Virus record (IMG/VR): IMGVR_UViG_3300033143_007604
Location: 1 to 46,797 of that record
Strand: one strand, 5' to 3'
Length of the DNA: 46,797 nucleotides
Origin: a virus
A program made the position numbers and the translations under genes. The stretch's first letter is position 1, and the number at the start of each line of letters is the position of its first letter. Positions 3,406-44,578 of this stretch are shown here, one piece after another. The notes under the pieces are model-generated. The model saw nothing but the letters and a program-made list of their open reading frames with translations. It was not told the DNA's origin and made no database searches.

Positions 3406-3438
3406 ATCATAACGTTTGATATTTAAATTCGCTTTCAT
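3406..3438 (-). promoter_or_regulatory. Promoter A: ECF-type element
   Basis: Minus-strand element ATGAAAG, 17 nt, CGTTATGAT. The same 33-bp, gap-free element occurs at 11025-11057, 32875-32907 and 42142-42174, always between genes or just at a gene end. TGAAAG and CGTTATG are invariant in all four, while the 17-bp spacer varies. The layout resembles ECF sigma promoters (for example TGAAAC-N16/17-CGTA or CGTC). It would drive the recombination module beginning at 3211. The start codon lies about 190 nt downstream. Confidence 0.7.
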
Positions 3439-3452
3439 AATTTATTTTATTG

Positions 3453-3521
3453 CGTTTCCTTGCCTTTCGAATATTGAGAGGTATTCCAATATTCTTAAGT
3501 ATCTTTGAGGGCAAGGAAACG
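3453..3521. terminator. Nested stem-loop at module boundary
   Basis: A perfect 12-bp inverted repeat (CGTTTCCTTGCC at 3453-3464, GGCAAGGAAACG at 3510-3521) encloses a second perfect 8-bp inverted repeat (GAATATTG at 3469-3476, CAATATTC at 3487-3494). It sits just after the last gene of the glycan operon and just before promoter A, so it may end transcription or protect the 3' end. It lacks a long uridine run, so Rho-independent termination is not certain. Confidence 0.5.
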
Positions 3522-3551
3522 TAACTCCGTTGCCTTCCATTTGAAAGGGAA
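3496..3551 (-). repeat. Dispersed 50-bp repeat, copy E1
   Basis: On the minus strand this reads CCTTTCAAA-T-GGAAGGCAACGGAGTT and continues with a conserved CTTGCCCTCAAA. Nearly the same 55-bp sequence appears on the plus strand at 27165-27220, and a more diverged copy at 36168-36223. This copy is inverted relative to the other two. The core folds into a GGAAG..CAAC-GGA-GTT hairpin. It overlaps the right arm of the nested stem-loop. Confidence 0.7.
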
Positions 3552-3556
3552 TATAA

Positions 3557-4207
3557 CTACTCCATACCTTTAACCCTAAACAGCCTCGTAGAGGATATTG
3601 GGTAGTTCCTAGTTAGTTCACGATGCCAAGTCCATGCCTTATGTTTTTGGTATATAGTTTGGCATCGAAAATAGAAATTCACATCAAGAGATACCTTACA
3701 TATCTTCTTAGCAGATTCATAATAAATCTTTTCCACATAAGCCGGAATCTTTTCTGCATTTCTATGACATTTACCCGCATCCTGCTCAATAATATCTGTT
3801 ACCAGCACATTCTGTACTAGAGGATGTTGTGTAACAAGTTCAAAAATTAATCGGTGATCTCCATGCCCATATTCCCCTACCGGATTATGAGTAAATACAA
3901 AATCATATTCATTTATATAAAGTTCTTTAGTAATGGCATTATTAATAATCTTCAAAACATCTTTTAGCTTGACTTCCGCTCTACGAAATGGAAGAGCATA
4001 AAAAGTGTTAGGCAATTTCAGAGTATTGACCAAATTTATATTCTCTCTAATACAAACTTCACGAAGAGCGTCACGTCCCTTTCGTTTTCCCGCACAAATG
4101 ATAAGTGATTTATTAAGATTTGGATTTTGCATAATGGGCCAACCAAAAATCACCTCATCATCTGGATGAGCAAAAATACAAAGAATTTTTGAATTTTTTA
4201 ACATCAT
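3557..4207 (-). CDS. PIG-L (LmbE-like) deacetylase
   Basis: 216 aa of the PIG-L/LmbE zinc-dependent N-acetylglucosaminide deacetylase family. The N-terminal AHPDDE motif at residues 13-18 supplies metal and catalytic residues, and HGDH at 115-118 completes the zinc site. The family removes acetyl groups from N-acetylglucosamine-type sugars. As last gene of the glycosyltransferase operon it most likely deacetylates a sugar or finished glycan made by the upstream enzymes. Overlap with the previous gene is four bases. No signal peptide is visible, so it should act in the cytoplasm. Confidence 0.9.
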   Translation of the reverse strand: MMLKNSKILCIFAHPDDEVIFGWPIMQNPNLNKSLIICAGKRKGRDALREVCIRENINLVNTLKLPNTFYALPFRRAEVKLKDVLKIINNAITKELYINEYDFVFTHNPVGEYGHGDHRLIFELVTQHPLVQNVLVTDIIEQDAGKCHRNAEKIPAYVEKIYYESAKKICKVSLDVNFYFRCQTIYQKHKAWTWHRELTRNYPISSTRLFRVKGME

Positions 4208-4542
4208 TTTATTTTTCCTATTTGTTTAAGAAATGCTGTGTTATTTTTCAGTTCCTTAGTTATTCTTATACGCTCGTATCGAGTTTTTTTATTCTCTTCT
4301 TCTTTGGGATTGTCTTTAAAGTCTTTTGATAACCGATGTTTCATTAGGATACTTACCGATTTTATACCCATGATAAAGCCTTCTTCTAAAAGCAGCACAT
4401 ATTTTTTCAGGACTTCAGGTTTATCTTTAAGATGAATAATTGTCAGATCATATAAATCTCTAAAAACTTCACAAATAGTTCTTTGCGGATTGGTTCCTGT
4501 TCCCTTTGGGGTTTCGAATATTTTATTAATTATCGTTTTCAT
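4204..4542 (-). CDS. Hypothetical protein in glycan operon
   Basis: 112 aa, Lys-rich, largely helical by composition, with a charged C-terminal half (DNPKEEENKKTRYERIR). No known domain and no membrane segment. It is wedged between the FkbM methyltransferase and the PIG-L deacetylase and overlaps the latter by four bases, so it is co-translated with glycan-tailoring genes. Function unknown. Confidence 0.65.
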   Translation of the reverse strand: MKTIINKIFETPKGTGTNPQRTICEVFRDLYDLTIIHLKDKPEVLKKYVLLLEEGFIMGIKSVSILMKHRLSKDFKDNPKEEENKKTRYERIRITKELKNNTAFLKQIGKIK

Positions 4543-4544
4543 AC

Positions 4545-5165
4545 TTAATCAGCTAAACTTTTCAAAATAAATGATCTATTTTTACGTCCTATTTCATAAA
4601 AAAGATTGTGAGTCATTAATAATTCATCAATCAAAAAATCTCTAGCATGTTTTCCGTATATTTGTGGATGAAATTCAATTACTATCTGCCCTATATTTTC
4701 ACTGAGATCTTTATTATGGGATATTTCAGTTATAATACCTAACTCAGATCCCTCACAATCTAAAAACAAAATATCTACAAAAGGTATATTATGTTCCCAA
4801 AGAAAAGATTCCAGGCTCCTTGTATCCACTCTGTATTGCGTTATCAATTTCAAGTCTGATTGGGTTTCGTGCCTAGGAAACATGCTGTTACCCTCACCTT
4901 TATTGGTGGAAGAAGCAGCAGGACAACTAAAATCATAATATAAAGCTGTTCCATCTCTTCCAGTTATAGCTATATTATAGGCCGATATTTTATCTGAAAT
5001 CAATTTAGTTAATTTCTCAAATGCCCATCTGCATGGTTCTATTGCATATATATTACATGGAAACTTTTTATAAAATTTAGTAACATCACTACCGTCATGA
5101 GCACCAATATCTATAACAACAGATTTCTCGTTTAAATACTCAGGCTCAATAATTCTTGCAGACAT
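4545..5165 (-). CDS. FkbM family methyltransferase
   Basis: SAM-dependent methyltransferase of the FkbM type, about 206 aa. DIGAHDGSD is the SAM-binding motif I, AIEPC follows as the acidic ribose contact, and VDILFLDCEGSELGIITEI is the characteristic FkbM motif with the catalytic-site acidic residues. The family usually O-methylates sugars. Two starts are possible. The ATG at 5165 has GGAG nine bases upstream, while the one at 5174 has it only one base away, so 5165 is preferred. In this operon it probably caps or decorates the glycan. Confidence 0.85.
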   Translation of the reverse strand: MSARIIEPEYLNEKSVVIDIGAHDGSDVTKFYKKFPCNIYAIEPCRWAFEKLTKLISDKISAYNIAITGRDGTALYYDFSCPAASSTNKGEGNSMFPRHETQSDLKLITQYRVDTRSLESFLWEHNIPFVDILFLDCEGSELGIITEISHNKDLSENIGQIVIEFHPQIYGKHARDFLIDELLMTHNLFYEIGRKNRSFILKSLAD

Positions 5166-5170
5166 ATTAA

Positions 5171-5686
5171 TCATCTCCTTTTACAATACAAACATTCCAT
5201 TATCCCACCACGTCCGTCTAATTCTTTAGATGTACAAAGATAAGTAAATCTATCTAATATCTCAAACTTCTTTTCAACTTGTTTTCTTATTTTTATCACA
5301 GCACCCTCTCCTCGATGCCAATAAGAAATGGCAGCGAAACTACCCATCTTACCTATCCTATGCAATTCCGGTACAGACTTTCTAACAACAGTGTGATATA
5401 ACATATTAAATGAAACAATAAAATCAATTGAATTATCAAGTATACACGTCAACTTTTCAGCTTTCCCTTGATAGAATATTTGTTTCGTTTTATTGTAAGT
5501 TAGATTCGGACAGATATTCTGATCAACTAGATACATCCAACGATATGAAAAATAATTAGAATACAGTCTACCTTCGCTATCAGAATCCTCTCCACATCCA
5601 ATATTCAACACAGTATTAAAATGTTTTCCATCTAAAGTTTTTCTCATCCATGCGTTATGTAATAATCTCAATCTTGTTGGCAACAT
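5171..5686 (-). CDS. SAM-dependent methyltransferase (type 11-like)
   Basis: 171 aa with a class I methyltransferase core: VLNIGCGEDSDSEG as motif I, a YLVDQN acidic strand end, and SIDFIVSFNMLYHTVVRKSVPELHRIGKMGSFAAISYW, the typical FD.V....LEH......L.E..R.LKPGG region of type 11 enzymes. It is slightly short for the family. Its start overlaps the end of the glycosyltransferase gene before it by 19 bases. A sugar O- or N-methyl transfer is the natural guess from context; the substrate is unknown. Confidence 0.75.
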   Translation of the reverse strand: MLPTRLRLLHNAWMRKTLDGKHFNTVLNIGCGEDSDSEGRLYSNYFSYRWMYLVDQNICPNLTYNKTKQIFYQGKAEKLTCILDNSIDFIVSFNMLYHTVVRKSVPELHRIGKMGSFAAISYWHRGEGAVIKIRKQVEKKFEILDRFTYLCTSKELDGRGGIMECLYCKRR

Positions 5687-6387
5687 TTATTTGACTCCTT
5701 GACAAAAGCTTTATAAGCTTTTTCCTTATCTCCTTTATGTGCAGACCAAAGAGGAGTATTTATATTATAATGCAAAGACCATAAGTTAATATTACAGACT
5801 TTGGAAAGTTGACGTGCAATACCTTTTAGACAATTTTGGTCTTTATAATGTTTGGTACAAATCTTGATTAATTTATTTCCGATATGATATAATTTGCCAT
5901 TATGATTAATTTGATTATATTGATTGCAGAATATAGAATAATTACGTGATCCAACTCTAAATACCATCAATCCAGCTTTATATTTATGCTTTTCAGAATA
6001 TAAACCGACATCAAATCCGTTCATTCTTTTATAAATATCTGATAACGGTTGTCGAACCAGCATGTCTGCATCCATATATATAACCAATTCATTTGGAATA
6101 GTATGCTCAACCAATTTGGGGATAAAATAGGTTCGCAGATTTTGCATAAGAATTTTCCATTCTGCTTGTCCTTTGTCTCCATCATATCTTTTTTGTTCTC
6201 CATCAAAATATAAATAATAATTCATGATATGAGTATTTTTATGAAGATCACGCAGTTCTACTACTGTATCCCATTCTAAATTAACACCAAATATTATTGT
6301 ATTTTCATCTGGTGCATTTTTCGCAATTGATTTGACAAGTAATTTCCCCCATCTGCTAAAATTTTCATCAAAATGAAAAGCTATCAT
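5668..6387 (-). CDS. GT-A-type glycosyltransferase (DAD motif)
   Basis: 239 aa. The segment ELVIYMDADMLVRQPLSDIYKRMNGFDVGLYSEKHKYKAGLMVFR is typical of GT-A nucleotide-sugar transferases (GT8-like and capsule-type). The DAD triad binds metal and nucleotide sugar, and the AGLMVFR segment corresponds to the N-G(V/M)-(M/I)-(L/F) acceptor-side strand. It is soluble with no membrane anchor. It overlaps the previous gene by four bases. Acceptor and donor cannot be read from sequence. Confidence 0.75.
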   Translation of the reverse strand: MIAFHFDENFSRWGKLLVKSIAKNAPDENTIIFGVNLEWDTVVELRDLHKNTHIMNYYLYFDGEQKRYDGDKGQAEWKILMQNLRTYFIPKLVEHTIPNELVIYMDADMLVRQPLSDIYKRMNGFDVGLYSEKHKYKAGLMVFRVGSRNYSIFCNQYNQINHNGKLYHIGNKLIKICTKHYKDQNCLKGIARQLSKVCNINLWSLHYNINTPLWSAHKGDKEKAYKAFVKESNKCCQQD

Positions 6388-7184
6388 CTATTTCTGCTCC
6401 AGTCTTGACATTTTATCTCATGACAAGTTATTGCGTCATGAAATATATCATTACGATAAAGTAATTTTTTAGTTCCACCTTTTAAATGTATGGCTGCTAC
6501 TACGTCTTTTTTATATTGTTTATAAGCTTGATTTATAAAACGATCGGTGTATTGATGAAGACAAAAATTATATTCCCAACCCACATCAATTATATTTATA
6601 TCACAAGACGTAGGTCTTTTCTCTGGATTTTTCCAAAGTACATTAAGAAAATCTTGTCCAATACACCAATCGGGAATGCGTCCTTTATGATTATAACTTT
6701 CAATATATTCAAGAAACAGAGGCCAACTTATCTCTTCAGTTTGATGGTTCCAGTAGGTCAAAAATCCCTTGGTTGCACTTGTTATTCGATAATAATATAT
6801 ACCGCCATTGATAGGATGCCTGAAACCATAATGTCTTTTAGTCAAACCCAAATCAAAAAAAGAATACTTTTTGAATACTGTAAAAGGATCTTTCATGAAA
6901 TAAATATCAGCATCTGAAACAAGCACTTGTGAACCCGTAGGTAAGTCCAAACAATACTTATTTGTTTCAATTACTTTACAAGCTGCTCTTCTTTTCCGCA
7001 TTAAATTTGGAGGTATTACAACCCATGTTACATTATATTTTTTCGTTAATATTTCCCTGAGTATTTGAGGCACATCATCAGTAATAACTACTATAACACA
7101 ATCGGAATTTTTTCGTAAAGTAGCAATACAAGTTTCGAACATATTATTGTCAGCTTGATGATAAGTGATTATGCAATATTTCAT
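6384..7184 (-). CDS. GT-A-type glycosyltransferase (DAD motif)
   Basis: 266 aa. GSQVLVSDADIYFMKDPFTVF carries the metal-binding DAD, and GFRHPINGGIYYYRIT matches the N-G-G strand found after it in nucleotide-diphospho-sugar transferases (GT77/DUF-like). A clear Rossmann-like start (KYCIITYHQADNNMFETCIATL) follows the pattern of the neighbouring enzymes, so these two or three genes may be ancient duplicates. It overlaps the preceding gene by 35 bases. Cytoplasmic; donor sugar unknown. Confidence 0.75.
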   Translation of the reverse strand: MKYCIITYHQADNNMFETCIATLRKNSDCVIVVITDDVPQILREILTKKYNVTWVVIPPNLMRKRRAACKVIETNKYCLDLPTGSQVLVSDADIYFMKDPFTVFKKYSFFDLGLTKRHYGFRHPINGGIYYYRITSATKGFLTYWNHQTEEISWPLFLEYIESYNHKGRIPDWCIGQDFLNVLWKNPEKRPTSCDINIIDVGWEYNFCLHQYTDRFINQAYKQYKKDVVAAIHLKGGTKKLLYRNDIFHDAITCHEIKCQDWSRNR

Positions 7185-7881
7185 TTTTGAACAACCCTTC
7201 TATTTTTCTTCCTGAAAGATGAATCATAATAGGTTTTACTTCAGGATATGGATAATTTATACAATACTCGGCATTAGCTTGACACACAAGCCATTGATGT
7301 GGAAGAATGTACGGATGCCATCCGCTTGCTTCAGCAGCAAGCCACGCAGCTAGAGGTCCTCTGCCTGGATTGTCTATATATATTTTCAAATAGTGGTTCA
7401 CATAATTTTGAACATGAACATTTTTTGGATCCGCAAAAAACATTCCCGAATTACAAACGGATCCATGTGGAATATGAAGATCTTTTCTTTTAATCTGTCT
7501 ATCGACTCCTCTAGATATATCTGAATGCAAAAATATTCTAGGACTTAAAGGCAGGCACATTCCAAATAAATTAGCTAATTCAAAACCTTCCATAAATGCT
7601 TCATTTACGACTCTTATATCATAATCCATGTAGAGAACGCATTCATCATACAATGATATAAGTTTCATCCGCCAATAATTACTATTTCTGTAACCATAGC
7701 GTCTGTGTCCTCTCCACTTGGTTTCGACCATTACTATTTTACAATTATATTTACCTTCCATTTTATTTTCTAGATCGTCGGTATAGATGTGTATGGGCAT
7801 ACGTGTATATTCTCGAATATGCGATACGAATCTTATTAATGCTTTTCTTTTGTTTCCAAATGCTGTAACAACTATTATCAT
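7150..7881 (-). CDS. Glycosyltransferase-like protein (DYD motif)
   Basis: 243 aa. N-terminal MIIVVTAFGNKRKALIRFVSHIREY is a GT-A nucleotide-binding start. CVLYMDYDIRVVNEAFM carries DYD in place of DXD, and HGSVCNSGMFFADP matches the N-(S/A)G-(M/V) acceptor strand. It is most likely a nucleotide-sugar transferase of the same broad type as the two downstream genes. Start overlaps the stop of the phosphatase/sulfatase-like gene by four bases. Confidence 0.7.
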   Translation of the reverse strand: MIIVVTAFGNKRKALIRFVSHIREYTRMPIHIYTDDLENKMEGKYNCKIVMVETKWRGHRRYGYRNSNYWRMKLISLYDECVLYMDYDIRVVNEAFMEGFELANLFGMCLPLSPRIFLHSDISRGVDRQIKRKDLHIPHGSVCNSGMFFADPKNVHVQNYVNHYLKIYIDNPGRGPLAAWLAAEASGWHPYILPHQWLVCQANAEYCINYPYPEVKPIMIHLSGRKIEGLFKNEILHNHLSSS

Positions 7882-8591
7882 CTTTTCACCTCAAACCAAG
7901 GAACGTATTTTAATTCTGAATATCCATCCTTTCCATGACCATATAATTTGGGTCCTATAATTTCTCCATGATCTGCAGTTAATATTATTCTACCTTTTAT
8001 AAAAGGTATATAATAAAAAATTGAATTAAGTGATATTTTTAAATTTTCAATATAGTATTCCCAAAGTTCTTCCCAACCATATTCACACCCATATTTTGTT
8101 ACTATATCATATATACTGTGTGTTAGATGACGTGAATCATGCGGCCATTCGAATTTTTCCAAGAAGTTTTTGCCTTCATTTCCGATATAAGGTAAGTGTG
8201 GTGGTATTAAATGAACTAAATATTTACGATCTATTTTTTGTTGATCTATAAAAGGTTTCATTGTCAAATTCGGGTGCATCCAATTTGTATCAGAATGCTC
8301 CTTCAACTTGATTATATTCCAATCTCCAAAAAATTTATGATATTTGTGTACATACCTATAAATAGATGGATGTGCAGTAATGATTGTGATATCATTATGT
8401 ACTGCCTTCGGTTGCCAGTGATATTCATACCATTGTTTCGTATTTAACGCTTCACTATCTACCTTTAAGCAAGTCCCGTTGATTGATGAATAGGAATCTA
8501 TTACTTGCATGAAAGCATCATAACGACAACAATCTAAAACAATCAATACATCCCATTCTTTTCTTTCCAACAATTCTCTTTGTTTAATCAT
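7878..8591 (-). CDS. Alkaline phosphatase/sulfatase superfamily protein
   Basis: 237 aa. DVLIVLDCCRYDAF gives the first metal Asp with a possible Cys/Ser-Arg nucleophile region (sulfatases use C/S-x-P/A-S-R). HLIPPHLPYIG matches a mid-domain His motif, and IILTADHGEIIGPKLYGHG is the DHGE...GHG metal site near the C-terminus. The superfamily includes sulfatases, phosphoglycerol and phosphoethanolamine transferases. There is no membrane domain, unlike the transferases, so a soluble hydrolase or transferase acting on the glycan is more likely. It is unusual inside a phage glycan operon. Confidence 0.7.
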   Translation of the reverse strand: MIKQRELLERKEWDVLIVLDCCRYDAFMQVIDSYSSINGTCLKVDSEALNTKQWYEYHWQPKAVHNDITIITAHPSIYRYVHKYHKFFGDWNIIKLKEHSDTNWMHPNLTMKPFIDQQKIDRKYLVHLIPPHLPYIGNEGKNFLEKFEWPHDSRHLTHSIYDIVTKYGCEYGWEELWEYYIENLKISLNSIFYYIPFIKGRIILTADHGEIIGPKLYGHGKDGYSELKYVPWFEVKR

Positions 8592-9459
8592 TATATTTCT
8601 TTCTAATTTTTAAGATTGTGTCTTTGTCCCATGTAGGTATAGGCCAGAATTTATCAATTAACCATTCAACAGGATGAATTTGTCCTTTTATTTGATTAGC
8701 CAAAAATTTACTTCTAATAATTCTGCCTGTTGTTCTAGCTCGCATGCCTTTATCTTTGTATGGAAATTTTCCCCTATACAAATGAGCACTCCAAAAATCA
8801 TTACACAATAACAATCTATATCCCATCAACCAGACTTTCAAACTAAATTCTGTGCCGGTGCTGCCCCAATTTCCAAGCGTTTCATCATATCCCCCAAGCT
8901 TCCACCATAAATCTACAGAAACAAACCAGGCTTCTCCACCAAACGCCATCAACTCTGGTTTATGTATATTTTTAAATCCTCCTCCAGTTCTTGGAGTCAA
9001 GTTCTTGTCCAGATAATACTGCATATTTTTATCAACAGGTTTCCATAATTGTTTATCCAGCCTCCACATTTTTGGAATTAGAAATACATCATCTTCTATC
9101 GCCTCTTTAGCTGCAATATCCCAATTAATTGACATCATAGAGTGAGCATCAATTTTCAAAAAGTATTTCCCTTTACTTTGACGCACAGCTTCATTAATAA
9201 GTCTTCGTTGCCCCAAACATTCCTTTACTTCTATAATCTTAATATATTCATTCCTACTAGCCAGATCCTTAACTAATTCAACTTGCTGCCTAAGAATTTT
9301 GGATATATTTGGATCCCTATCGTTGTGTGCCGTGAAATCCCAACCATCTAGAAGAACAAATATTTCTATATCTTCCTTAGCTGTGGCTATAACATTAAAA
9401 ACAGTTTTGTAGAGATATTTTTCATTTCTACTTGGAATAATAACTGACACTAAATCCAT
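8584..9459 (-). CDS. GT2/GT27-like glycosyltransferase, polypeptide GalNAc-transferase type
   Basis: 291 aa from the ATG at 9459, which has AAAGGAT upstream (a longer frame starts at 9495 inside the previous gene). N-terminal VSVIIPSRNEKYLYKTV and FVLLDGWDF are family 2 motifs. KIDAHSMMSINWD has the D-x-H metal motif, and GGYDETLGNWGSTGTEFSLKVWLMGY followed by SAHLYRGKFPY is the W-G-x-E-x3-S/L-K-x-W...H-x-x-R arrangement known from polypeptide N-acetylgalactosaminyltransferases (GT27). It is paralogous to the gene at 10105-10998. Likely role: transfer of a sugar to Ser/Thr of a protein, with the PT-rich virion tails as candidate acceptors (inference). Confidence 0.85.
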   Translation of the reverse strand: MDLVSVIIPSRNEKYLYKTVFNVIATAKEDIEIFVLLDGWDFTAHNDRDPNISKILRQQVELVKDLASRNEYIKIIEVKECLGQRRLINEAVRQSKGKYFLKIDAHSMMSINWDIAAKEAIEDDVFLIPKMWRLDKQLWKPVDKNMQYYLDKNLTPRTGGGFKNIHKPELMAFGGEAWFVSVDLWWKLGGYDETLGNWGSTGTEFSLKVWLMGYRLLLCNDFWSAHLYRGKFPYKDKGMRARTTGRIIRSKFLANQIKGQIHPVEWLIDKFWPIPTWDKDTILKIRKKYND

Positions 9460-10112
9460 TGCATATCCTTTTTTATTTGTTCGCAAAATCCCCAATATTC
9501 TATATTAGATAACACAGGTTTCTCTATTACATTAGATATATTGTTGCCATGCCTAACATCAATACAAGGATATTTATTCGACCTGACTTCCCATAATCCA
9601 GTATGATCATCTCTACTCGTTCCTGGCTCAGATTTTTCCCATCCCCCTTTTTTCATATTCAAATACATGATTCTGTAAAGACGTAAAGTAAAATGAGCTA
9701 GAACCAGCTTAAAATTTCCAGCTAAAGTAGATAAATCACATTGTCCTGTGTACCAGAAACCCTTTTGATTCATGAAATATTTTCTAATAAAATAATAGAA
9801 CGTATCATTTCTGTCAGGTATGAAATCAAAATAATCTAAAGGGTACAAAACGTCATGCTCCGCAAAAAACACAAACTTAGGATTCAAAACTTCATACATT
9901 TTGAAAAGACCATACTGAATTTGTTGGTACATTGAAAAACGACTTCTCTCCATTTCTTCTATAACATAATTATAAGTACCAAATTCTAACTCTCCTTGAG
10001 ACACTGAAAAAATAGGAATATTTCCCGCTACTTTTCTAAGATTTTTTCTGCAATGTTTAGCAACACCCCCATGTAATTTTTGGTCTGTATAATATAGTAT
10101 GGCTTTATCCAT
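9450..10112 (-). CDS. Putative glycosyltransferase (GT-A-like)
   Basis: 220 aa. The N-terminus AILYYTDQKLHGGVAKHCRKNLRKVA and FVFFAEHDVLYPLDYFDFIPD resemble a GT-A fold in which EHD takes the DXD place. A later RDDHTGLWEVRS carries further acidic and His residues. Nothing more specific is recognised. It is embedded between the two GalNAc-transferase-like genes and overlaps both, so it probably extends or supplies the same glycan. Confidence 0.6.
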   Translation of the reverse strand: MDKAILYYTDQKLHGGVAKHCRKNLRKVAGNIPIFSVSQGELEFGTYNYVIEEMERSRFSMYQQIQYGLFKMYEVLNPKFVFFAEHDVLYPLDYFDFIPDRNDTFYYFIRKYFMNQKGFWYTGQCDLSTLAGNFKLVLAHFTLRLYRIMYLNMKKGGWEKSEPGTSRDDHTGLWEVRSNKYPCIDVRHGNNISNVIEKPVLSNIEYWGFCEQIKKDMQWI

Positions 10113-10998
10113 TTTTCAATTGCTCCTTATCCCATGTCGGTACGGGCCGGAATTTATTCACTAACCAATCTATTGTATGAATTTGCAAAGGATATTGATT
10201 ATTTAACCAGTATTCTTTCGTTCGTTTTTTGTTTTCCTGGATCCCTGCTGCACTAACTTTATAAGGAAAACGTCTTCTGAACACATGAGCAAACCACACA
10301 TTTTTATTTAATAATTGTCTACCACCGGAAAGCCAACATTTTAAACTTGTTTCTGGTGCTGATTCCCCCCAACCATATAAAGATTCGTCGTGTCCACCAA
10401 GTTGCCACCAATATTGAACAGAACTAAACCATGAAGCACCCAAATTGCTCATTACTTCACAAACGGGTTTCTGTGCTTCTTCACGTTGAGCGTATTCAGG
10501 CCAATGTCTCTGATGAATGTTACTATCAATATAAAGATAATCAAAAAAACGAGTACCATAAACAAAAGTTTCAGGATCCATTGATCTGATTCTAGGAATG
10601 ATTAAAGTCTCAAGTCCTGCTTCCTCATAAGATTTGATAAGTTCCACATCCCAATTAGGACTAAGATCACAATGGGCATCCAATTTAATAAAATAAGTAG
10701 CATCAGTTTTTGCTAAAGCTAGATTTAAAGCATGTCGAACACCCAGAGAATCAGGTAAGTCATGAATTGTGATTCGTTGATCGGATTCTGCCATCTGTTT
10801 GATTTCTTCAATTTGCTTTCTGTAGATGTCTATTATTGCTTGATTAGATTTGTTGTTAGCAAAAATATCCCATCCATCGAGAATAACGTCGATTTTTATA
10901 TCATCAGGATTTTTCGCAGAAGAGAAATATTGCTTGACTGTTCTTGTCAGAAGTGTTTCATTACGGGAAGGAATAACCACACAAATCTTCTTGCTCAC
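10105..10998 (-). CDS. GT2/GT27-like glycosyltransferase, polypeptide GalNAc-transferase type
   Basis: 297 aa, first gene of the glycan operon. Start codon is GTG with AGGAG eight bases upstream. ICVVIPSRNETLLTRTV and DVILDGWDIF are family 2 signatures. FIKLDAHCDLSPNWD closely follows the D-x-H metal motif of polypeptide GalNAc-transferases, and GGHDESLYGWGESAPETSLKCWLSGG then FAHVFRRRFPY matches their WGxE..S.KxW.CGG..HxFR block. It is the paralogue of the gene at 8584-9459. Promoter B lies 27 bases upstream. Expected role: first sugar transfer onto Ser/Thr side chains; the target is inferred, not shown. Confidence 0.87.
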   Translation of the reverse strand: MSKKICVVIPSRNETLLTRTVKQYFSSAKNPDDIKIDVILDGWDIFANNKSNQAIIDIYRKQIEEIKQMAESDQRITIHDLPDSLGVRHALNLALAKTDATYFIKLDAHCDLSPNWDVELIKSYEEAGLETLIIPRIRSMDPETFVYGTRFFDYLYIDSNIHQRHWPEYAQREEAQKPVCEVMSNLGASWFSSVQYWWQLGGHDESLYGWGESAPETSLKCWLSGGRQLLNKNVWFAHVFRRRFPYKVSAAGIQENKKRTKEYWLNNQYPLQIHTIDWLVNKFRPVPTWDKEQLKNG

Positions 10999-11024: not shown

Positions 11025-11057
11025 ACCATAACGTTTGACATCCAAACTTACTTTCAT
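11025..11057 (-). promoter_or_regulatory. Promoter B: ECF-type element
   Basis: Second copy of the 33-bp element (ATGAAAG, 17-nt spacer, CGTTATGGT) on the minus strand. The predicted start point is about 20 nt ahead of the GTG start of the first glycosyltransferase, so it would launch the 11-gene glycan operon. It lies between a stem-loop and that operon, as expected at a transcription boundary. Confidence 0.7.
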
Positions 11058-11079
11058 AATATTTTCCTATTCAAATTCC

Positions 11080-11146: not shown

Positions 11147-11632
11147 TTATGTTATCTTTTTGTTTCGAATAACTTTGTCCTTTCTTTTACTATCAGCTAT
11201 CGCACCAGCACCACCACCTATAAGCAATAATGTAACAAGGGACGTGATTGATGCTGCTGTGTCAATAGGATTTCCCATAATGAGAGACGTTGCTACGCCT
11301 CCCGTCAACTCTATGAATTTTCGTCGTGCCTCATATTTTCGTTCGTAACCAGCATAACCCAATTCTACTTTCGCATTATGTTCATCAATTCGAGCATCTA
11401 ACTTATTGCCATCAGCTTCATAATTAGTGATGGCATCTTGCAATTCACGCTCGACAGAGAGGATTTCTAAATTGAACTCTTCAATCGAAACTTCCCTTTC
11501 AGAACCGATCAAAGATGGCATTTTTGGGGTGCATGATGTGAACCCTATCATCATGATCAGAGCCATCATGACACCTAATACTTTCCATCTGTTATGATCG
11601 ATCCAATTCAACAAATTGTGTAACACATCCAT
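11147..11632 (-). CDS. Candidate u-spanin / lysis lipoprotein
   Basis: 161 aa. A basic N-terminus (NRWK) precedes a hydrophobic stretch at about residues 17-33 ending in the lipobox-like FTSC, with Cys34 as possible lipidation site. A long charged coiled-coil-like region (about 45-110) follows, then a second membrane segment at about 122-147 (TAASITSLVTLLLIGGGAGA) and a basic tail. An outer-membrane lipoprotein end plus an inner-membrane helix joined by a coiled coil is the plan of unimolecular spanins, which fuse the two membranes at lysis of Gram-negative hosts. It sits last in the structural block. A generic membrane protein is the alternative. Confidence 0.5.
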   Translation of the reverse strand: MDVLHNLLNWIDHNRWKVLGVMMALIMMIGFTSCTPKMPSLIGSEREVSIEEFNLEILSVERELQDAITNYEADGNKLDARIDEHNAKVELGYAGYERKYEARRKFIELTGGVATSLIMGNPIDTAASITSLVTLLLIGGGAGAIADSKRKDKVIRNKKIT

Positions 11633-12470: not shown

Positions 12471-13073
12471 CTAATCGAGACACGTATTTTCATCTAATAT
12501 ATACATACAACTGTAAGTACAGTAGTCAGGATTCGGGCATACATATTCAGTACACTCATAAAGAATATAAACGCAACCTGCTGCACCCGCACATTCACCC
12601 ACTGGGATGCAAGGATAGCTAAATCCAGACATACATTTACCAGGGCATCCACCACAGGCACAAAGTGCTCCAGGTGGAGTACACACACAAGCAGGCGGTT
12701 GGCCTGCTTCATAAGTATTGCAACATTCATTAGATGTGGGTTCTGGGGTTGGAGTTGGGGTTGGGCTGGGAGGAGGCGTAGGACTAGGTGTAGGACTAGG
12801 TGTAGGACTAGGTGTAGGACTAGGTGTAGGCGTAGGACTAGGTGTAGGCGTAGGAGTAGGTACGCAGCATGTAACACTTCTTGCCTCAAACTTATTTGTT
12901 GCATTATTCCACTTAACCTGAAAGTCTGTATCATCACAATTTATCTCAAGTTTATTATTTACATTATCCCAATGAGCAGGACCAATTTCAGTTTCACCAA
13001 TATCATCATCACAATATGCAGTAAAATCATTCGCATTATCATCAAATTTTACTCTATTAGTTGACATCACCAT
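12471..13073 (-). CDS. PT-repeat, Cys-rich virion-type protein
   Basis: 200 aa in three parts. Residues 1-70 are acidic and beta-like, with repeated N-x-F/L-E-x-N themes. A mucin-like linker of alternating Pro with Thr/Ser runs over roughly residues 72-112. The C-terminal 85 residues hold about 16 Cys (for example CACGGCPGKC), suggesting a disulfide-knotted extracellular module. Start may be ATG 13073 or the third codon ATG. It lies distal to the tape measure among tail genes, so a tail tip or adhesion part is plausible. The linker is a prime candidate for O-glycosylation by the operon downstream. Confidence 0.75.
   Translation of the reverse strand: MVMSTNRVKFDDNANDFTAYCDDDIGETEIGPAHWDNVNNKLEINCDDTDFQVKWNNATNKFEARSVTCCVPTPTPTPSPTPTPSPTPSPTPSPTPSPTPPPSPTPTPTPEPTSNECCNTYEAGQPPACVCTPPGALCACGGCPGKCMSGFSYPCIPVGECAGAAGCVYILYECTEYVCPNPDYCTYSCMYILDENTCLD
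12740..12862. repeat. Tandem repeat coding a Pro-Thr/Ser linker
   Basis: Imperfect 6- and 12-bp tandem units (plus strand GGTGTAGGACTA and variants) encode the alternating P-T/P-S linker of the Cys-rich protein. Similar repeats close three other structural genes, and such slippage-prone DNA should vary in copy number between relatives. Confidence 0.85.
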
Positions 13074-17494: not shown

Positions 17495-17566
17495 TTAAGG
17501 TGTCGGAGTTGGAGTTGCGGTTGGTGTAGGTGTTGCAGTAGGTGTTGGAGTAGGTGTAGGACTAGG
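17495..17566. repeat. Tandem repeat coding a C-terminal PT tail
   Basis: 6-bp units encode alternating Pro and Thr/Ala to the end of the beta-domain protein. The block is similar in base sequence to those at 22783-22865 and 18987-19020. Confidence 0.8.
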
Positions 17567-18067
17567 TGCAGCAGACAATCCTGCAATAGATACATTATAG
17601 AGCAAATCTGCTGCAGTCTCAGCATTGTGAGCGAATTTCAATTGATCATTCGCATCAACAACCAGACCATCTTCGCTATGGAACAACCAAATCATCTCAC
17701 TGTCTGGAGGTAGAAGAATGATGTCGCTAACATCGTCACATAGAGGAACATCTGCTGCTCCTACTCCACCTATTTTGAGACTATCTGTTGTTGACAAATT
17801 TCTGATATAAAGTATTTTAATATCAAAAAAGGTTACACTATCTCCAAAACTATCACTCAATGAAGAAGTCAAATCCAAAGTTTCCGATGCTCCAGTTCCT
17901 AATGTTCTCTGATCATGCCAAACAATATCTACTTGGTGATTATTACCGGCCGTGCTTACTACAGTAAGTTTTCTTGCCACGTTTAATGAATCTGCTACTG
18001 AACTAAGATCAAGAGCTTTTGTTAAAGCCAGATCAATTTTTATTTGAGCACTGCCTGTTACGTTCAT
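17495..18067 (-). CDS. Virion beta-domain protein with PT tail
   Basis: 190 aa. Residues 1-165 are a compact beta domain and the last ~25 residues are a P-T/A-T tail running to the stop. The domain is clearly homologous to the C-terminal domain of the 645-aa protein at 18987-20924 (shared D-x-RTL-x-TGxSExLDLTxSL, FFDIKI-YIRN-STTD-LK-GG, FHSEDGLVVD-ND-LK). So one is a duplicate of the other. It lies between tail terminator-like and tube genes; a surface decoration or fibre-base role is plausible. The tail is a candidate glycosylation substrate. Confidence 0.75.
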   Translation of the reverse strand: MNVTGSAQIKIDLALTKALDLSSVADSLNVARKLTVVSTAGNNHQVDIVWHDQRTLGTGASETLDLTSSLSDSFGDSVTFFDIKILYIRNLSTTDSLKIGGVGAADVPLCDDVSDIILLPPDSEMIWLFHSEDGLVVDANDQLKFAHNAETAADLLYNVSIAGLSAAPSPTPTPTPTATPTPTATPTPTP

Positions 18068-18986: not shown

Positions 18987-19020
18987 TTATGTCGGAGTCG
19001 GTGTAGGAGTTGGAGTTGGT
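18987..19020. repeat. Tandem repeat coding a C-terminal PT tail
   Basis: Short 6-bp repeat block giving a P-T tail of about ten residues at the end of the beta-helix protein. It is the shortest of the four such blocks in the genome. Confidence 0.75.
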
Positions 19021-20924
19021 CGTATTTCCAATCCAGTAATAACAATATCATATTCCAAACTATTAGCTGTTTCACCCCCATGTTCAATTTTCAACATATC
19101 GTTGTCATCTACTACCAATCCATCTTCACTATGAAACAAAATTGCAACGTCTGTATCAGGTTGCAAAACCAGTATATCACTACTATCATTAAATATAGGA
19201 AAAGCCCCCGAAGCAGCACCACCAACTTTTAGGGTATCTGTAGTTGAGCAATTTCTAATATAGAATATTTTAATATCAAAAAAAGCTATCTTATCTCCTA
19301 AACCATTACGCAAAGAATTAGTCAAATCCAATTCTTCTGATACACCAGTAGCTAAAGTTCTTGTGTCACTCCATATTTTATCAACTTCATGATCATTCAA
19401 ACTATTGCTTATTTCCAAAGATTCACCAATATGGACATCATCAAAAGGAGTAGACATATCCAGCTCTTTAGAACAAAATAAATCAATATCAATGCTTGCT
19501 GTTCCGGTAACGACATCAGGATCTTCAGCAGTCCAATCCTCAATTTGCTCTGGATGAACAGCACCTATTTCATAAGGCTCTCCATTATATTGATAACCAC
19601 CCGCTAATACTGATGCTGTTGTAGGTAAATAATTAGCGTCAAGTCCAGCACTTGTGCTATCAACAGCATGTTCTGGAGTTTCACTACCTCCCCAACGATT
19701 AGCAGCAATTGAATTGGTACTGCTATAATCGCTGTAAAGAATAAGGCCTGCATCTAACTTGATAGCTAGATCATTAGCAGCATCAGCTACTTCAAATATA
19801 TTATTCTGTTGATATAATTGACAAGATGCATGATTCATTCGAATAGAGGCAATAGTCTGAGCAGAAAAAGTATTGCCCTTAGCTATTTTTAGATAAAGAG
19901 AATCTAATCCAAGACCATATTGTCCACCTACTAAAATCGAATTTTCAAGAATTAGTATAGAGGCAGTGTCCTCAAAAACACAATAATTAGCTGTACCACC
20001 TTCACTCTCAATATAACAACTATCAATAAACGTAATAGAACCACCTGCACCTGCAATATAGATAGGATATCCGGTCGCTGTTATATAACAGTCAATTATA
20101 TTAAGTGATATCGCATTGGCTGATGGACCGGCATAGAACCCTTCGACACATCCGGTAGTTTTACAATAAAAGAAACTAGCACCATCATTATCCACTTCAT
20201 TAGAAGTAACTTCAAAACCTCTACCATTTCCGCCTTCATTGTTATCAAGTGCATAATAATGAAAAATTCGTACATCAAACAGATCTTCAATATTAAGTAA
20301 GGCATGATCAGACATAGGTTCAAAATTATTAGCATCTAAAGTATTGTAAGAACCTTTAGCAAGTTCAATTCCAGTATTTGAGCAAGCAAATATACTTAAA
20401 TTATCCTGATTGTCTATATCGATTTGAGTAGTTATTTGAACTGTAGCAGGTTGATAATCCCATATCTCATAATTATCATAGCCTGCAAGTAAAGTATCAG
20501 AAACCCTTTGCAGAGTATCTAAAGCTCCACCCAGATAAACATCAGTACAGTTATTATTATCATCACCTGTAGCTCCGGCAGGACGGTTTATATCAATCCA
20601 ATTACCGGCAGGATTATCCCAATCAACCACTTCGACTCTATCATTAAAAGTTTGAGCACAGGTGCATCTTACACGTGCGATCCAACCTGTACAATCAAAA
20701 GGGAAAGCACCTGCCTTAGTGATACGAGCTATAACTCCACCACCGCCATCGTGATCATAGTTAGCACCATTTACAGTTAGTTTAAGAGCACCGTTCGCAC
20801 CACAAAAAGTATCGCTAAACAATTGAGCTACAGTAAGTGCGCCTTTAACAATACCACCGGCATTATCCTGATGAGCACCACTAGCATCTCCCGTACCACC
20901 TTTAATCATAATAAGATCAGACAT
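18987..20924 (-). CDS. Beta-helix virion protein with PT tail
   Basis: 645 aa, the longest structural product after the tape measure's neighbours. The middle (about residues 160-420) has many short Ile/Leu-rich turns with Asn/Ser/Gly corners (for example SITFIDSCYIESEGG, SILILENSILVGGQYG), typical of a right-handed parallel beta-helix as in phage adhesion or depolymerase proteins. The C-terminal ~170 residues duplicate the domain of the protein at 17495-18067, and the last ten residues are PT repeats. It probably forms a decoration or spike exposed on the particle near the neck; catalytic residues were not identified. Confidence 0.7.
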   Translation of the reverse strand: MSDLIMIKGGTGDASGAHQDNAGGIVKGALTVAQLFSDTFCGANGALKLTVNGANYDHDGGGGVIARITKAGAFPFDCTGWIARVRCTCAQTFNDRVEVVDWDNPAGNWIDINRPAGATGDDNNNCTDVYLGGALDTLQRVSDTLLAGYDNYEIWDYQPATVQITTQIDIDNQDNLSIFACSNTGIELAKGSYNTLDANNFEPMSDHALLNIEDLFDVRIFHYYALDNNEGGNGRGFEVTSNEVDNDGASFFYCKTTGCVEGFYAGPSANAISLNIIDCYITATGYPIYIAGAGGSITFIDSCYIESEGGTANYCVFEDTASILILENSILVGGQYGLGLDSLYLKIAKGNTFSAQTIASIRMNHASCQLYQQNNIFEVADAANDLAIKLDAGLILYSDYSSTNSIAANRWGGSETPEHAVDSTSAGLDANYLPTTASVLAGGYQYNGEPYEIGAVHPEQIEDWTAEDPDVVTGTASIDIDLFCSKELDMSTPFDDVHIGESLEISNSLNDHEVDKIWSDTRTLATGVSEELDLTNSLRNGLGDKIAFFDIKIFYIRNCSTTDTLKVGGAASGAFPIFNDSSDILVLQPDTDVAILFHSEDGLVVDDNDMLKIEHGGETANSLEYDIVITGLEIRPTPTPTPTPT

Positions 20925-22782: not shown

Positions 22783-22865
22783 TTACGTTGGAGTCGGTGT
22801 AGGTGTTGCAGTTGGAGTAGGTGTAGGTGTCGGACTAGGTGTAGGTGTCGGGGTTGGAGTTGGAG
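22783..22865. repeat. Tandem repeat coding a C-terminal PT tail
   Basis: Block of 6-bp units (plus strand GGTGTAGGTGTCGG-type) encoding the last ~28 residues of the decoration protein. It is closely similar to the block at 17495-17566. Confidence 0.85.
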
Positions 22866-23574
22866 CTTCAGGTACAGTTGTACCCGTAAACAGATTATCA
22901 AAGATCCACAAACCAACACCAATCTTACCGAGTTGATTTCGATACCATTCTTGTGTTTCATATGGTGTAGGCCAATTAATAATCTGACTTTCATCAACAA
23001 TTCCACCTACCAACAAATTATAAAGTGGTATATTGATATTTTCATTATTCTCATCGGTAACCTTATGTCCATAACCATCACCAATAAGCCCAAGCGGTAT
23101 TTCAGATCCATCAGCAGGACAAATCACACTTCCTGCTAAAAACGGACCTGTAATAGCACCAACAGTTACAATTCCTGTAGCCGGAACGCAATTCGACATC
23201 GTTACACGTTCTACTGTGGGTGCTGCTCCAGTTCCACCATCGCCAATGATTGTAAGCGTACCGGTAACACCTCCAACACGCCTGAGAATTTCAGTTGCCG
23301 TAGCAACAGACACTTCAATCGATGTTTGACCAGCAGGCTCATTGTTCAGCAACTTTCCATATATTGCCGGAGCAAACAAACCAGTTGCAGTAATTTTGCC
23401 CATAACCATCCCAGCACGTAGCACATCTACATCACCTGTATTCAAAGGATCTCGTGCCAAAGCACCATTAACAGTAACGCCACCTGGAAACTTGATTGAA
23501 TGATCTAAAGTCTTCAACACCTTTCTGGGAGTTGCAACTTTCGTAGTTTTAATTCCTGGAAGTCCATAACTCAT
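22783..23574 (-). CDS. Head decoration protein with PT tail
   Basis: 263 aa. VLRAGMVMGKITATGLFAPAIYGKLLNNEPAG followed by ATEILRRVGGVTGTLTIIG and a later LIGDGYGHKVTDENNENINIPLYNLLVGGIVDESQI correspond to lambda-gpD-like/HDPD capsid decoration proteins. It is encoded just before the capsid gene as in lambda. The last ~30 residues are alternating P-T/P-S/A-T, a mucin-like tail that would project from the capsid surface in hundreds of copies. This is the best candidate acceptor for the phage glycosyltransferases. Strong ribosome site AAAGGAGATATAAC. Confidence 0.8.
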   Translation of the reverse strand: MSYGLPGIKTTKVATPRKVLKTLDHSIKFPGGVTVNGALARDPLNTGDVDVLRAGMVMGKITATGLFAPAIYGKLLNNEPAGQTSIEVSVATATEILRRVGGVTGTLTIIGDGGTGAAPTVERVTMSNCVPATGIVTVGAITGPFLAGSVICPADGSEIPLGLIGDGYGHKVTDENNENINIPLYNLLVGGIVDESQIINWPTPYETQEWYRNQLGKIGVGLWIFDNLFTGTTVPEAPTPTPTPTPSPTPTPTPTATPTPTPT

Positions 23575-25289: not shown

Positions 25290-25448
25290 TTATTTTTTCT
25301 CGTATAGTTTCAGATCAATAGAACGAATCTCGTCTAGTGTATCATTAATTCTTTTAATTTTAATAGGATCTGTTTCAATATCCAAAGGAGTACCCATTCT
25401 TCTGCGTTTGTTTAAATCAATCTTTTGTTTTGTTTTAGTTGCAGGCAT
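25290..25448 (-). CDS. Small basic protein, 52 aa
   Basis: Short gene between the minor head protein and the protease. Its ATG overlaps the upstream stop (TAATG) and its stop lies next to the protease start. The product begins MPATKTKQKIDLNKRRRMG and ends in a charged helix (DEIRSIDLKLYEKK). No domain recognised. Tight coupling on both sides and absence of any other frame make it a real gene of the head module. Confidence 0.65.
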   Translation of the reverse strand: MPATKTKQKIDLNKRRRMGTPLDIETDPIKIKRINDTLDEIRSIDLKLYEKK

Positions 25449-27158: not shown

Positions 27159-27164
27159 AACTTA

Positions 27165-32874: not shown

Positions 32875-32907
32875 ATCATAACGTCCAATATCCAAATTCC
32901 CTTTCAT
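32875..32907 (-). promoter_or_regulatory. Promoter C: ECF-type element
   Basis: Third copy of the 33-bp element (ATGAAAG, 17-nt spacer, CGTTATGAT). Its -10-like box is about 21 bases from the start of the 75-aa gene. Everything downstream to the spanin candidate is on the same strand without another copy, so C may begin the packaging and structural (late) unit. Confidence 0.7.
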
Positions 32908-32933
32908 AACGAGGTTCGAACATTCAAAAAATT

Positions 32934-36157: not shown

Positions 36158-36167
36158 TCTCAACCCA

Positions 36168-36223: not shown

Positions 36224-36241
36224 ATGGTACTAGAGTACCCC

Positions 36242-40583: not shown

Positions 40584-40584
40584 C

Positions 40585-42141: not shown

Positions 42142-42174
42142 ATCATAACGTCTGGGGTTTAAATTCGCTTTCAC
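42142..42174 (-). promoter_or_regulatory. Promoter D: ECF-type element
   Basis: Fourth copy of the 33-bp element (GTGAAAG, 17-nt spacer, CGTTATGAT). It overlaps the last codons of the polymerase gene, so part of it is coding as well. Downstream are the 92-aa gene, UvsY-like, SSB, PurZ-like, kinase and dUTPase genes, which then form one unit ending at the 38.4-kb stem-loop. Confidence 0.65.
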
Positions 42175-44578
42175 TAACCATCTCATATAAATTCCTACCG
42201 ATATGAACATCTACTTCCAAATGTGTGGGTTTGTTCTTCCAATACCACATCTGATTATGGATAAGCATTGAGTCTTTTAATACAGCAATGGCTAATTTTA
42301 AATTATCGACATCCACATCCATTATAATACTATCATGAACCGTTCCAATTATCACCGCTCTCAACTGTCTCTGTCTTAATTTTACTATACACCGACACAA
42401 CGCAAGCAAACAAAATCGATTGCCAGTAGATTGTACTGAGTAATTACCGGCTTGTCGCAAAGCTCGTTCACTTTCCCAATGATCCGAACTCCTGGCATTT
42501 GGAAGATGCCTTCTAGCACCAAACAGATCCTCAACATAGCCTTTATGAATTGCTTCCCTATGAAAACCTTGACGAAACCGAGCAATACCTGGAAACCTAC
42601 TATTATAACCATCTATCAGCTTTTTTGCCTCCTTCAAACTAACATCAATAGCCTGTGACAGTCCGTATTCTGTCTGGCCATACATTTGCCCTAAATTTAG
42701 CGTCTTACCGCGTCTTCGCTGCTCCTTAGTTACATCATCATAATCCACCTTATATATCACAGATGCAACCCATCGATGTAAATCTAATTTTTCATTAATA
42801 GCCTTACACATTGATTGATCACCCGACCATCCTGCCAGAATTATCGGTTCAAGTTGTGAATAATCAGCACTCACTAAATACCCATCATCATATCTGCTAT
42901 CAAACGCCCTACGAACAATCGAATGAACAGGTATATTTTGTAAGTTTGGATTGGAAGATGAAAGCCTACCAGTTACAACTATTGCCTGGTTATACTGCGT
43001 ATGGACACAATGATGAGGTCCCAAACTTTCATCCCATTTATTAAGAAACCCATTTAACATAGCACTATAGGAACGAACTTGGTTCATATCCCCAATAGCT
43101 GGATATTTATCAATATATGGGGCCAAATGATCCTTATCCAACGATCGCATACCTTTCGAATCTGGTTGTATAGGTAATTTCAATTCATCAAAACAAAGCC
43201 TCTCCATCTGCTTTCGGCTTTTTGGATTAAATAAATCTCCATCTTTAAATGTTTTAATGTTTTCCACCGCCCATTTTCGAACCCGAAGCACTTCTGGACG
43301 AGATTGAAATCTATCTTCCATTTCCACTATTTTCGAGTTTATTTCCACCCGCAATCGCGTCACCTCTTCAGGATCGATATGCATGCCAATCAATTCTACT
43401 TGTGCTAGAAAATAAGCAAAACTTTCCTGCATTGCAACAATATTCCCTTGCCCTTCCCTCTCTATTACCTCTGTAAGTTTTTTTTCCGATTCATAAGTAG
43501 CTAATGCGTCGAGACCACAATAAGTTAATAATTCTCCCAACTCCACTGACTCCACACTTTTTGGTACATCCTGATAATGTGTTTTATAATAAGCCCATGG
43601 CAACCCCGCCCATCCAGCAATAGCCCCCAAATTGCACCCTGCCGTTTCATCAATACAATGCATTCTCAACATCGTGTCTCGTAGTAATGCAGAACCACCA
43701 AACCGCAAAAAATTACACTTATGCTCGTATTTGGCGTTTTGTGCTATACCCCATCCATTTCTTATAATTTGGTTCCAAAGACGTACTATATCACGTTGTT
43801 GATCACCCTGCCATACCATTTCCCGATGATCTAAAGGAAAACACACCGCCCCATCAACTGTTGCAACTCCTATACACACTATTTGTAGACTCCGATTTAG
43901 TTCTGGTCTCTTCGCATCTACATCACCAATAACTTCATAATCATAAGCAAATTTCTCAGATGAATAAAGTAACTGTTGTAGATAATTTTTAATCTCAAGA
44001 TATTTAATTAAATGGCGAACTTTCGGAAGAGATGGTATTCCCTTTTTTAATATCGACTCCACTAGTTCCCAACACCCAAACCATTTATCTTGAATGGCAC
44101 GATAATCCTTGTTGCCCTCTGATCGTAATAAATATGATGGATGATAGGAATAAATAACTGGAATGGTTTGCCCATTAATATTCACACTCTCCATTTGTCC
44201 AACCTTAGTGGATATCGCTGTTTTTTGCTGCAAAACCGATTGAGCAGCATAGGCCCCAAGAGCGATTATAACTTTTGGTTTATATTTTGTAACCAAATCC
44301 ACCCAACATTGACGGCATTTATTTATATGAGCTTTAGTAGGTTTGTCAAACTGATGAAGACATCGCACAGCATTATCAATTATATATTTATTCGTAATCC
44401 CAGACAGCACAGACCTGAGTATCTTACCCGATGGCCCGACAAATGGTCTATTCGCCTTCAATTCTTCATATCCTGGCTGTTCCCCCAACACCAAAATATC
44501 ATTACCAGTAATCTCAGCCTTTATAAAGCCTTTACCATCACCACGCCTACTACACTTATTACAAAACTCAATATTCAT
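42143..44578 (-). CDS. Family A DNA polymerase with N-terminal uracil-DNA glycosylase domain
   Basis: 811 aa. Residues 1-175 are a family 4-type uracil-DNA glycosylase: Cys6, Cys9, Cys73 and a Cys88/Cys91 pair for an iron-sulfur cluster, GEQPG at 32-36, HPSYLLR at 146-152. Residues ~205-370 are a 3'-5' exonuclease (DYE at 213-215, NAKYEH at 281, YCGLD at ~353). The polymerase has motif A (Asp572), motif B (RRRGKTLNLGQMYG, 622-634) and motif C (HD at 748-749). It copies the phage genome. Located upstream of the PurZ-like gene, it could be the DpoZ-type enzyme of a 2-aminoadenine phage. The glycosylase fusion is unusual. Confidence 0.92.
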   Translation of the reverse strand: MNIEFCNKCSRRGDGKGFIKAEITGNDILVLGEQPGYEELKANRPFVGPSGKILRSVLSGITNKYIIDNAVRCLHQFDKPTKAHINKCRQCWVDLVTKYKPKVIIALGAYAAQSVLQQKTAISTKVGQMESVNINGQTIPVIYSYHPSYLLRSEGNKDYRAIQDKWFGCWELVESILKKGIPSLPKVRHLIKYLEIKNYLQQLLYSSEKFAYDYEVIGDVDAKRPELNRSLQIVCIGVATVDGAVCFPLDHREMVWQGDQQRDIVRLWNQIIRNGWGIAQNAKYEHKCNFLRFGGSALLRDTMLRMHCIDETAGCNLGAIAGWAGLPWAYYKTHYQDVPKSVESVELGELLTYCGLDALATYESEKKLTEVIEREGQGNIVAMQESFAYFLAQVELIGMHIDPEEVTRLRVEINSKIVEMEDRFQSRPEVLRVRKWAVENIKTFKDGDLFNPKSRKQMERLCFDELKLPIQPDSKGMRSLDKDHLAPYIDKYPAIGDMNQVRSYSAMLNGFLNKWDESLGPHHCVHTQYNQAIVVTGRLSSSNPNLQNIPVHSIVRRAFDSRYDDGYLVSADYSQLEPIILAGWSGDQSMCKAINEKLDLHRWVASVIYKVDYDDVTKEQRRRGKTLNLGQMYGQTEYGLSQAIDVSLKEAKKLIDGYNSRFPGIARFRQGFHREAIHKGYVEDLFGARRHLPNARSSDHWESERALRQAGNYSVQSTGNRFCLLALCRCIVKLRQRQLRAVIIGTVHDSIIMDVDVDNLKLAIAVLKDSMLIHNQMWYWKNKPTHLEVDVHIGRNLYEMVSESEFKPQTL

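Follow-up and report, generated by a model that had tools for sequence, protein, structure and literature searches.

A putative operon for virion glycosylation, with a conserved core and a lineage-specific periphery, in an uncultured phage

Glycosylation of virions by phage-encoded glycosyltransferases (GTs) has been described in the mycobacteriophages Che8, Corndog and Myrna (Freeman et al. 2023, as referred to in passages of PMC12619734 and PMC12363180), and the glycans are placed, in the corresponding passage of PMC12619734, on the C-terminal ends of the subunits that form capsid and tail tube. Other systems that can be compared are the chlorovirus PBCV-1, which has a GT for its capsid protein (structures 2p6w, 2p72 and 2p73), and O-antigen conversion by gtrABC, as in phage P22. 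Here we analyse a GT cassette at positions 3557-10998 of the IMG/VR virus record IMGVR_UViG_3300033143_007604, an uncultured phage; the whole stretch of DNA analysed, 46,797 bases, is called the window, and since it has a 114-bp direct terminal repeat the record is probably complete. Like the mycobacteriophage systems, as far as those passages present them, the cassette encodes GTs of the phage itself, and where their sugars sit on C-termini, here there are C-terminal tails that could be modified; unlike them, six GTs are found together with a PIG-L deacetylase, two methyltransferases, an alkaline-phosphatase-superfamily-like (AP-like) protein and Thr-Pro tails. With moderate confidence we propose that the cassette is an operon for O-glycosylating virion tails, whose core is conserved and whose lineage-specific periphery would methylate and N-deacetylate the glycan. 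Virion glycosylation by phages is already known; new here are a GT-A family lacking a family model and found fused to GT2, a core that is kept while the periphery is swapped, and the Thr-Pro tails.

The cassette consists of 11 co-directional open reading frames (ORFs) on the minus strand, abutting or overlapping, ten of which encode enzymes, and it covers 7442 of the 46,797 bases, that is 15.9% of the window; the operon and the share of about 16 percent of the genome claimed by a preliminary description of this DNA, which was made from the sequence, are thus confirmed. The cassette proteins were searched against three family libraries, Pfam, PHROGs and NCBIfam. Of the six glycosyltransferase-like genes announced in that description, four are above their Pfam cut-offs: GT2a, the first gene of the cassette (10105..10998; PF00535, 32.3 bits, cut-off 23.3), and GT2b (8584..9495; PF00535, 36.5 bits, cut-off 23.3), both family 2 glycosyltransferases, a nucleotide-diphospho-sugar transferase with a DAD motif (6384..7184; PF03407, 37.1 bits, cut-off 22) and a GT8 glycosyltransferase, also with a DAD motif (5668..6387), which passes PF01501 narrowly with 24.8 bits against 24.3. 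The fifth, a GT8-like protein with a DYD motif (7150..7881), stays under the same cut-off of 24.3 with 16.0 bits and is 84% identical in G001, a relative described below, and the sixth (9450..10112) is a GT-A glycosyltransferase by its predicted fold. The deacetylase and the two methyltransferases also named there all exceed their thresholds: PIG-L (3557..4207) with 34.8 bits for PF02585 (cut-off 28.2) over positions 1-127 of 129, the FkbM methyltransferase (4545..5174), a candidate for adding an O-methyl cap, with 58.6 bits for PF05050 (cut-off 22.7) and 70.8 for TIGR01444 (37.7), and a second, S-adenosylmethionine-dependent methyltransferase (5171..5686) with 23.7 bits for PF08241 (cut-off 21.2). 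PIG-L carries the motif AHPDDE, whose residues presumably play the roles usual in this family, and the motifs of the enzyme set are intact. The remaining enzyme is the AP-like protein (7878..8591), a predicted phosphatase, sulfatase or phospho-transferase; the remaining ORF (4204..4542, 112 aa) is not an enzyme by any search, has no Pfam or PHROGs assignment and is not present in G001. No match was found in Pfam, PHROGs or NCBIfam for 7878-8591 and 9450-10112, so the labels first given to these proteins needed other evidence. Sequence searches of the PDB with these two proteins, PIG-L and FkbM returned nothing of use; among 50,697 phage records, no match was obtained with the nucleotide sequence of the whole cassette, nor with five of its proteins (10105, 7878, 9450, 6384 and 4545).

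A scan with the terminase reached G001, a genome of 44,572 bases colinear with the window, and L007, a fragment of 8.3 kb. All ten enzymes have homologues in G001, with amino-acid identities of 73-92% (92% for GT2a), and the ratios of nonsynonymous to synonymous substitution rates (dN/dS) between the window and G001 are 0.07-0.25 for the cassette enzymes, as compared with 0.04-0.32 for 24 other genes. All ten cassette enzyme genes are under purifying selection and, because they are all kept in G001 with such ratios, the cassette is not due to chance. The second genome, G005 (46,610 bases), is a distant relative, whose backbone proteins show identities of 72% (terminase), 74% (capsid), 60% (PurZ) and 52% (polymerase fused to a uracil-DNA-glycosylase domain). 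Its cassette occupies the same site, between a lipoprotein-like gene and recombination genes, and has five genes: GT2a (71%), the GT-A protein (50%) and GT2b (62%) are retained, followed by a 407-aa protein without Pfam match and then a methyltransferase. As other genes stand behind the three retained ones, it can be stated that a three-gene core was inherited and the rest swapped, and the cassette thus appears to be made of a conserved core and a lineage-specific periphery. PIG-L was considered as a general part of such cassettes and rejected, being found in one of 40 GT-A-carrying records searched, namely G001. The idea that the set would build and then modify an elaborate sugar fits the enzyme types, and the modifying part is lineage-specific.

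The structural comparison that had been suggested as a check was run for 9450-10112 and predicted a GT-A fold. A model built by AlphaFold 2 on an alignment of seven sequences (pLDDT 85.7, pTM 0.87) matches GT-A glycosyltransferases of the PDB in Foldseek with a probability of 1.00, with human glucuronyltransferases at E 6.9e-6, and further matches are a bacterial histo-blood-group GT and the capsid-glycosylation GT of PBCV-1 (2p6w, E 1.8e-5). The chlorovirus enzyme is therefore similar in fold and is a viral GT that serves a capsid, but it comes from a eukaryotic algal virus, shares 9% sequence identity with the phage protein and has another acceptor. In VIA the hyaluronan synthases rank first (Z 13.5, root-mean-square deviation 3.5, 183 aligned positions) and IspD nucleotidyltransferases tie at Z 12.7, so these matches point clearly to the fold, though not to one reaction. 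The protein carries the motif AEHDVLYP, from which we call its family 'EHDV'. Seven viral stretches were found with this motif, that is five new records with relatives, G001 and L016; the last was discarded as a relative since it has the motif yet does not align with the family. The motif is invariant in all seven aligned sequences, five of which were picked by that same motif, and it may take the place of the DXD metal motif.

To what extent this family is distributed was seen from scans of viral contigs: with two sequences only G001 was reached, while a profile-guided scan of IMG/VR gave 111 relatives, of which the best 80 were kept, G001 and 79 further loci (L020-L098). A one-pattern scan of bacterial and archaeal genome contigs gave eight stretches and no relative, a result that does not exclude prophages; within the viral contigs and this pattern scan the family was found only in viruses. 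It would provide a marker for which Pfam, PHROG and NCBIfam gave no model match. In 54 of the 79 loci one protein carries the GT-A domain behind a GT2 domain, as a fusion; a separate GT2 gene is adjacent, upstream or downstream, in 11, lies elsewhere in the locus in 13 and was not seen in one, so a GT2 relative is present in 78/79. When the ORFs of these loci were clustered and one representative per cluster was annotated, a cluster with a Methyltransf_24 representative occurred in 49/79 loci, and representatives of smaller clusters were a UDP-sugar dehydrogenase, an epimerase and a DegT aminotransferase. Since the core pair and sugar genes recur across loci, such cassettes are not rare in uncultured phages. 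The fused GT2-GT-A protein of L028 matched no named phage among the 50,697 records, and our literature searches, in open-licence papers, gave no phage GT cassette associated with mucin-like or serine-proline repeat virion proteins. In another uncultured phage (L014:4593-12843), about ten sugar genes follow a major head protein, including an epimerase, a GT2, methyltransferases, TOD1/MUCI70-like GTs and a GT2-GT-A fusion. We also asked whether such cassettes generally adjoin the gene for the major capsid protein, and abandoned this idea: one capsid family appears in 6/50 records, and its distance to the GT-A gene varies.

Candidate acceptors, three of them in the virion region, are all encoded on the minus strand. 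The protein at 22783..23574 has a C-terminal (TP)n tail, and its gene is flanked by those for maturation protease and major capsid protein, in the place of a decoration protein; this position matches that of the annotated decoration protein of Gordonia phage Austin, to whose proteins no convincing sequence similarity was detected. A tail-region protein (17495..18067) also ends in a (TP)n tail, a beta-helix protein (18987..20924; PF13229) ends with RPTPTPTPTPT, and the internal TPTPSP linker of 12471..13073 makes this protein a possible acceptor. Tailed homologues of the first two are present in all three genomes (window, G001 and G005); the beta-helix protein has a tailed homologue in G001. 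Three or four kinds of Pro and Thr codons are mixed in each of two window tails, which argues for selection on the protein and against a plain DNA repeat. Among the 79 GT-A loci, an ORF with at least six Ser-Pro or Thr-Pro pairs ([ST]P) per 30 residues is found in 43, with at least five in 53 and with at least four in 55, whereas with shuffled residues 5/79 loci reach six; in 25 of the 43 loci the nearest such ORF lies within 2 kb. Nine structural regions of named phages (230 kb), used as control because a capsid-based set gave one new locus only, have a maximum of four [ST]P per 30 residues and none reaches five. L127, a locus fetched by its capsid protein, also has the GT-A family together with Ser/Thr-Pro-rich ORFs. 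These Ser/Thr-Pro-rich proteins of other loci are candidate virion proteins.

An alternative explanation is that the enzymes alter a glycan of the host envelope, such as O-antigen, capsule or teichoic acid, blocking superinfection or freeing the progeny from receptors. Some phage GTs are known to alter the surface sugars of the host, the P22 record annotates gtrB and gtrC, and a small conserved lipoprotein-like gene (11147-11632) lies just upstream of the cassette; its product has two hydrophobic segments, one of them N-terminal, and a lipobox-like FTSC, and is kept in all three genomes. The cassette shares with gtrABC conversion the presence of GTs on a phage genome, but it differs in lacking both GtrA and membrane segments: GtrA (PF04138) was found in 0/3 genomes by a search positive in 7/14 controls, and no cassette enzyme has a hydrophobic segment (the Kyte-Doolittle value of 19-residue stretches exceeds 1.29 in none of them). 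The genes therefore show no route for lipid-linked export, and we regard a host-envelope target as unlikely.

It could also be hypothesized that the GTs glycosylate the phage DNA as part of a base hypermodification, since a passage of PMC12619734 cites GTs whose target is phage DNA. The window has PurZ-like (39516-40595), dUTPase-like (38542-38988) and deoxyribosyltransferase-like (44575-45465) genes, because of which the phage DNA is probably modified, and recombination genes adjoin the cassette. From its gene content the genome is probably a 2-aminoadenine (Z) genome, and PurZ0 phages carry Dut-like and NDT-like enzymes, according to a passage of PMC12884076. However, neither thymidylate synthase/hydroxymethylase (PF00303) nor C5-DNA-methylase (PF00145) was found in any of the three genomes, with positive controls and with TET/JBP dioxygenases outside the search, so that DNA glycosylation would lack its usual first step. 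Nor would one usually expect FkbM and PIG-L in DNA modification, and DNA is an improbable target. The least probable explanation is that the product is a small sugar, diffusible or nucleotide-linked, and no glycoconjugate: PIG-L, methyltransferases and AP-like enzymes are also known from small-molecule pathways, but such a product hardly accounts for six GTs or for a GT2/GT-A pair that is conserved in the vicinity of Ser/Thr-Pro-rich proteins.

The absence of GtrA, hydroxymethylase and C5-methylase genes and of hydrophobic segments favours a soluble cytoplasmic acceptor, and because of their Thr-Pro tails virion proteins are the best candidates; host envelope and DNA are possible targets that weigh less. 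The same evidence favours the virion target of the preliminary description, although as an inference, and we infer likewise the acceptor, the order of the steps, each donor sugar and the timing. In the O-glycosylation of virion tails that we propose, soluble phage GTs would act in the host cytoplasm during infection: GT2a, the GT-A protein and GT2b would start and extend a glycan on Thr/Ser of the proline-rich C-terminal tails of capsid-decoration and tail proteins, and the GTs at 7150, 6384 and 5668 would lengthen or branch it. PIG-L would strip an N-acetyl group, leaving a charged amino sugar, the two methyltransferases would add O-methyl groups and may cap the chain, and the AP-like enzyme would take off or transfer a phosphate or sulfate ester, the whole cassette having a phage-specific promoter-like element of its own.

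Several observations weigh against this proposal. The major capsid protein has no Thr-Pro tail, and the positional counterpart of the 12471 linker protein in G001 is without the repeat. Of the 79 loci, 24 remain under four [ST]P per 30 residues, and the 11-kb GT-A locus of G005 has no Ser/Thr-Pro-rich ORF, its tailed proteins being elsewhere in the genome; the proximity of such ORFs is thus not universal. The control of nine structural regions is small and consists of cultured phages, unmatched to the uncultured ones. Finally, the cassette, with a promoter-like element of its own, is not just transcribed as a part of the tail operon.

Going farther, we put forward, as a tentative generalization somewhat less probable than the proposal for this phage, a widespread class of uncultured phages with mucin-like virions, in which the GT2 and GT-A ('EHDV') pair would O-glycosylate Ser/Thr-Pro repeats of structural proteins. 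It is equally tentative that lineage-specific methyltransferases and nucleotide-diphospho-sugar enzymes, and in this phage PIG-L and the AP-like protein, would give each phage its specific sugar coat. If this is true, virion glycosylation would be common in uncultured phages and not a peculiarity of mycobacteriophages, such phages could be recognised by the core enzyme pair and the acceptor repeats, and the targets of phage-encoded GT operons would be directly testable with few expressed proteins.

The label of alkaline-phosphatase-superfamily protein, previously given to 7878-8591, is supported by an archaeal AP-like family and, tentatively, by a low-confidence fold. A single-protein scan of viral contigs gave nothing; archaeal relatives were fetched by a motif search, and 19 archaeal loci (L104-L122; Haloferax, Lokiarchaeota and others) hold 21 proteins homologous to it (best blastp E 1.9e-23, profile E 6.1e-36, 23-29% identity). 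When 19 of the archaeal proteins were aligned with those of the window and G001, two partial ones being left out, all 21 sequences kept D20, D25, D207, H208 and H219 and had either Thr or Ser at position 51. By analogy D20, T51, D207, H208 and H219 are candidate catalytic residues, for which we assume roles as metal ligands and Thr/Ser nucleophile. The phage protein shares these residues (D20, T/S51, D207, H208 and H219) with the archaeal family, but it is shorter. The model from two sequences has a pLDDT of 44.5 and Foldseek returned nothing at E 0.001; the structural comparison indicated as a check, run on this low-confidence model with VIA, places PorX, PglZ, YejM/PbgA and LtaS in rows 1-15 (Z 8.8-5.2). 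Neighbours of the archaeal genes, annotated for three loci, include group 1 glycosyltransferases (L109), a sulfotransferase (L105) and, among others, a methyltransferase and an aminotransferase (L112). Two Lokiarchaeota loci (L105 and L113) have two AP-like proteins near each other, in L105 with the sulfotransferase between them.

The promoter-like element mentioned above is a phage-specific sequence of 32 nt, which a matrix scan locates on the minus strand directly upstream of the cassette (11027..11058), downstream of it before the recombination genes (3408..3439), upstream of the packaging/structural block (32877..32908) and in the replication block (42144..42175). The four window copies lie on the coding strand and score 38-45 bits, compared with at most 15.9 in 20 shuffles; three of them were the seeds of the matrix, and the copy at 32908 was not. 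Copies in G001 are at 6410 (unseeded, 36.1 bits), 17252 and 43536, with a degenerate form upstream of its cassette; in G005, variants scoring 21.5-27.1 bits are at 1181 (upstream of GT2a), 22956, 483 and 26186, and another of 18.0 bits is at 13591, the best site on the other strand scoring 17.1 bits. A pattern scan with the 32 bases found only G001, L007 and L010. From these positions the cassette is probably a transcription unit of its own. The protein encoded at 44575-45465 has a sigma-70 region 2 domain fused to the deoxyribosyltransferase-like domain and is a candidate reader of the element; the presence of this sigma domain indicates a bacterial host.

Other features of the genome were also noted. 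A uracil-DNA-glycosylase-superfamily domain is fused to a family A DNA polymerase at 42143-44578, and G001 and G005 have homologues of it. At 25448-27034 a phage Mu F-like head protein is encoded that has a C-terminal match to an ADP-ribosyltransferase exoenzyme just under the cut-off, and its G001 homologue is shorter (331 aa). A conserved non-coding element of 88 bases has a full copy at 36155-36242 of the window and short partial copies at 27164-27195 and 3513-3548, and it is found in G001 as two full copies and one partial copy (12297-12384, 20856-20931 and 43411-43498).

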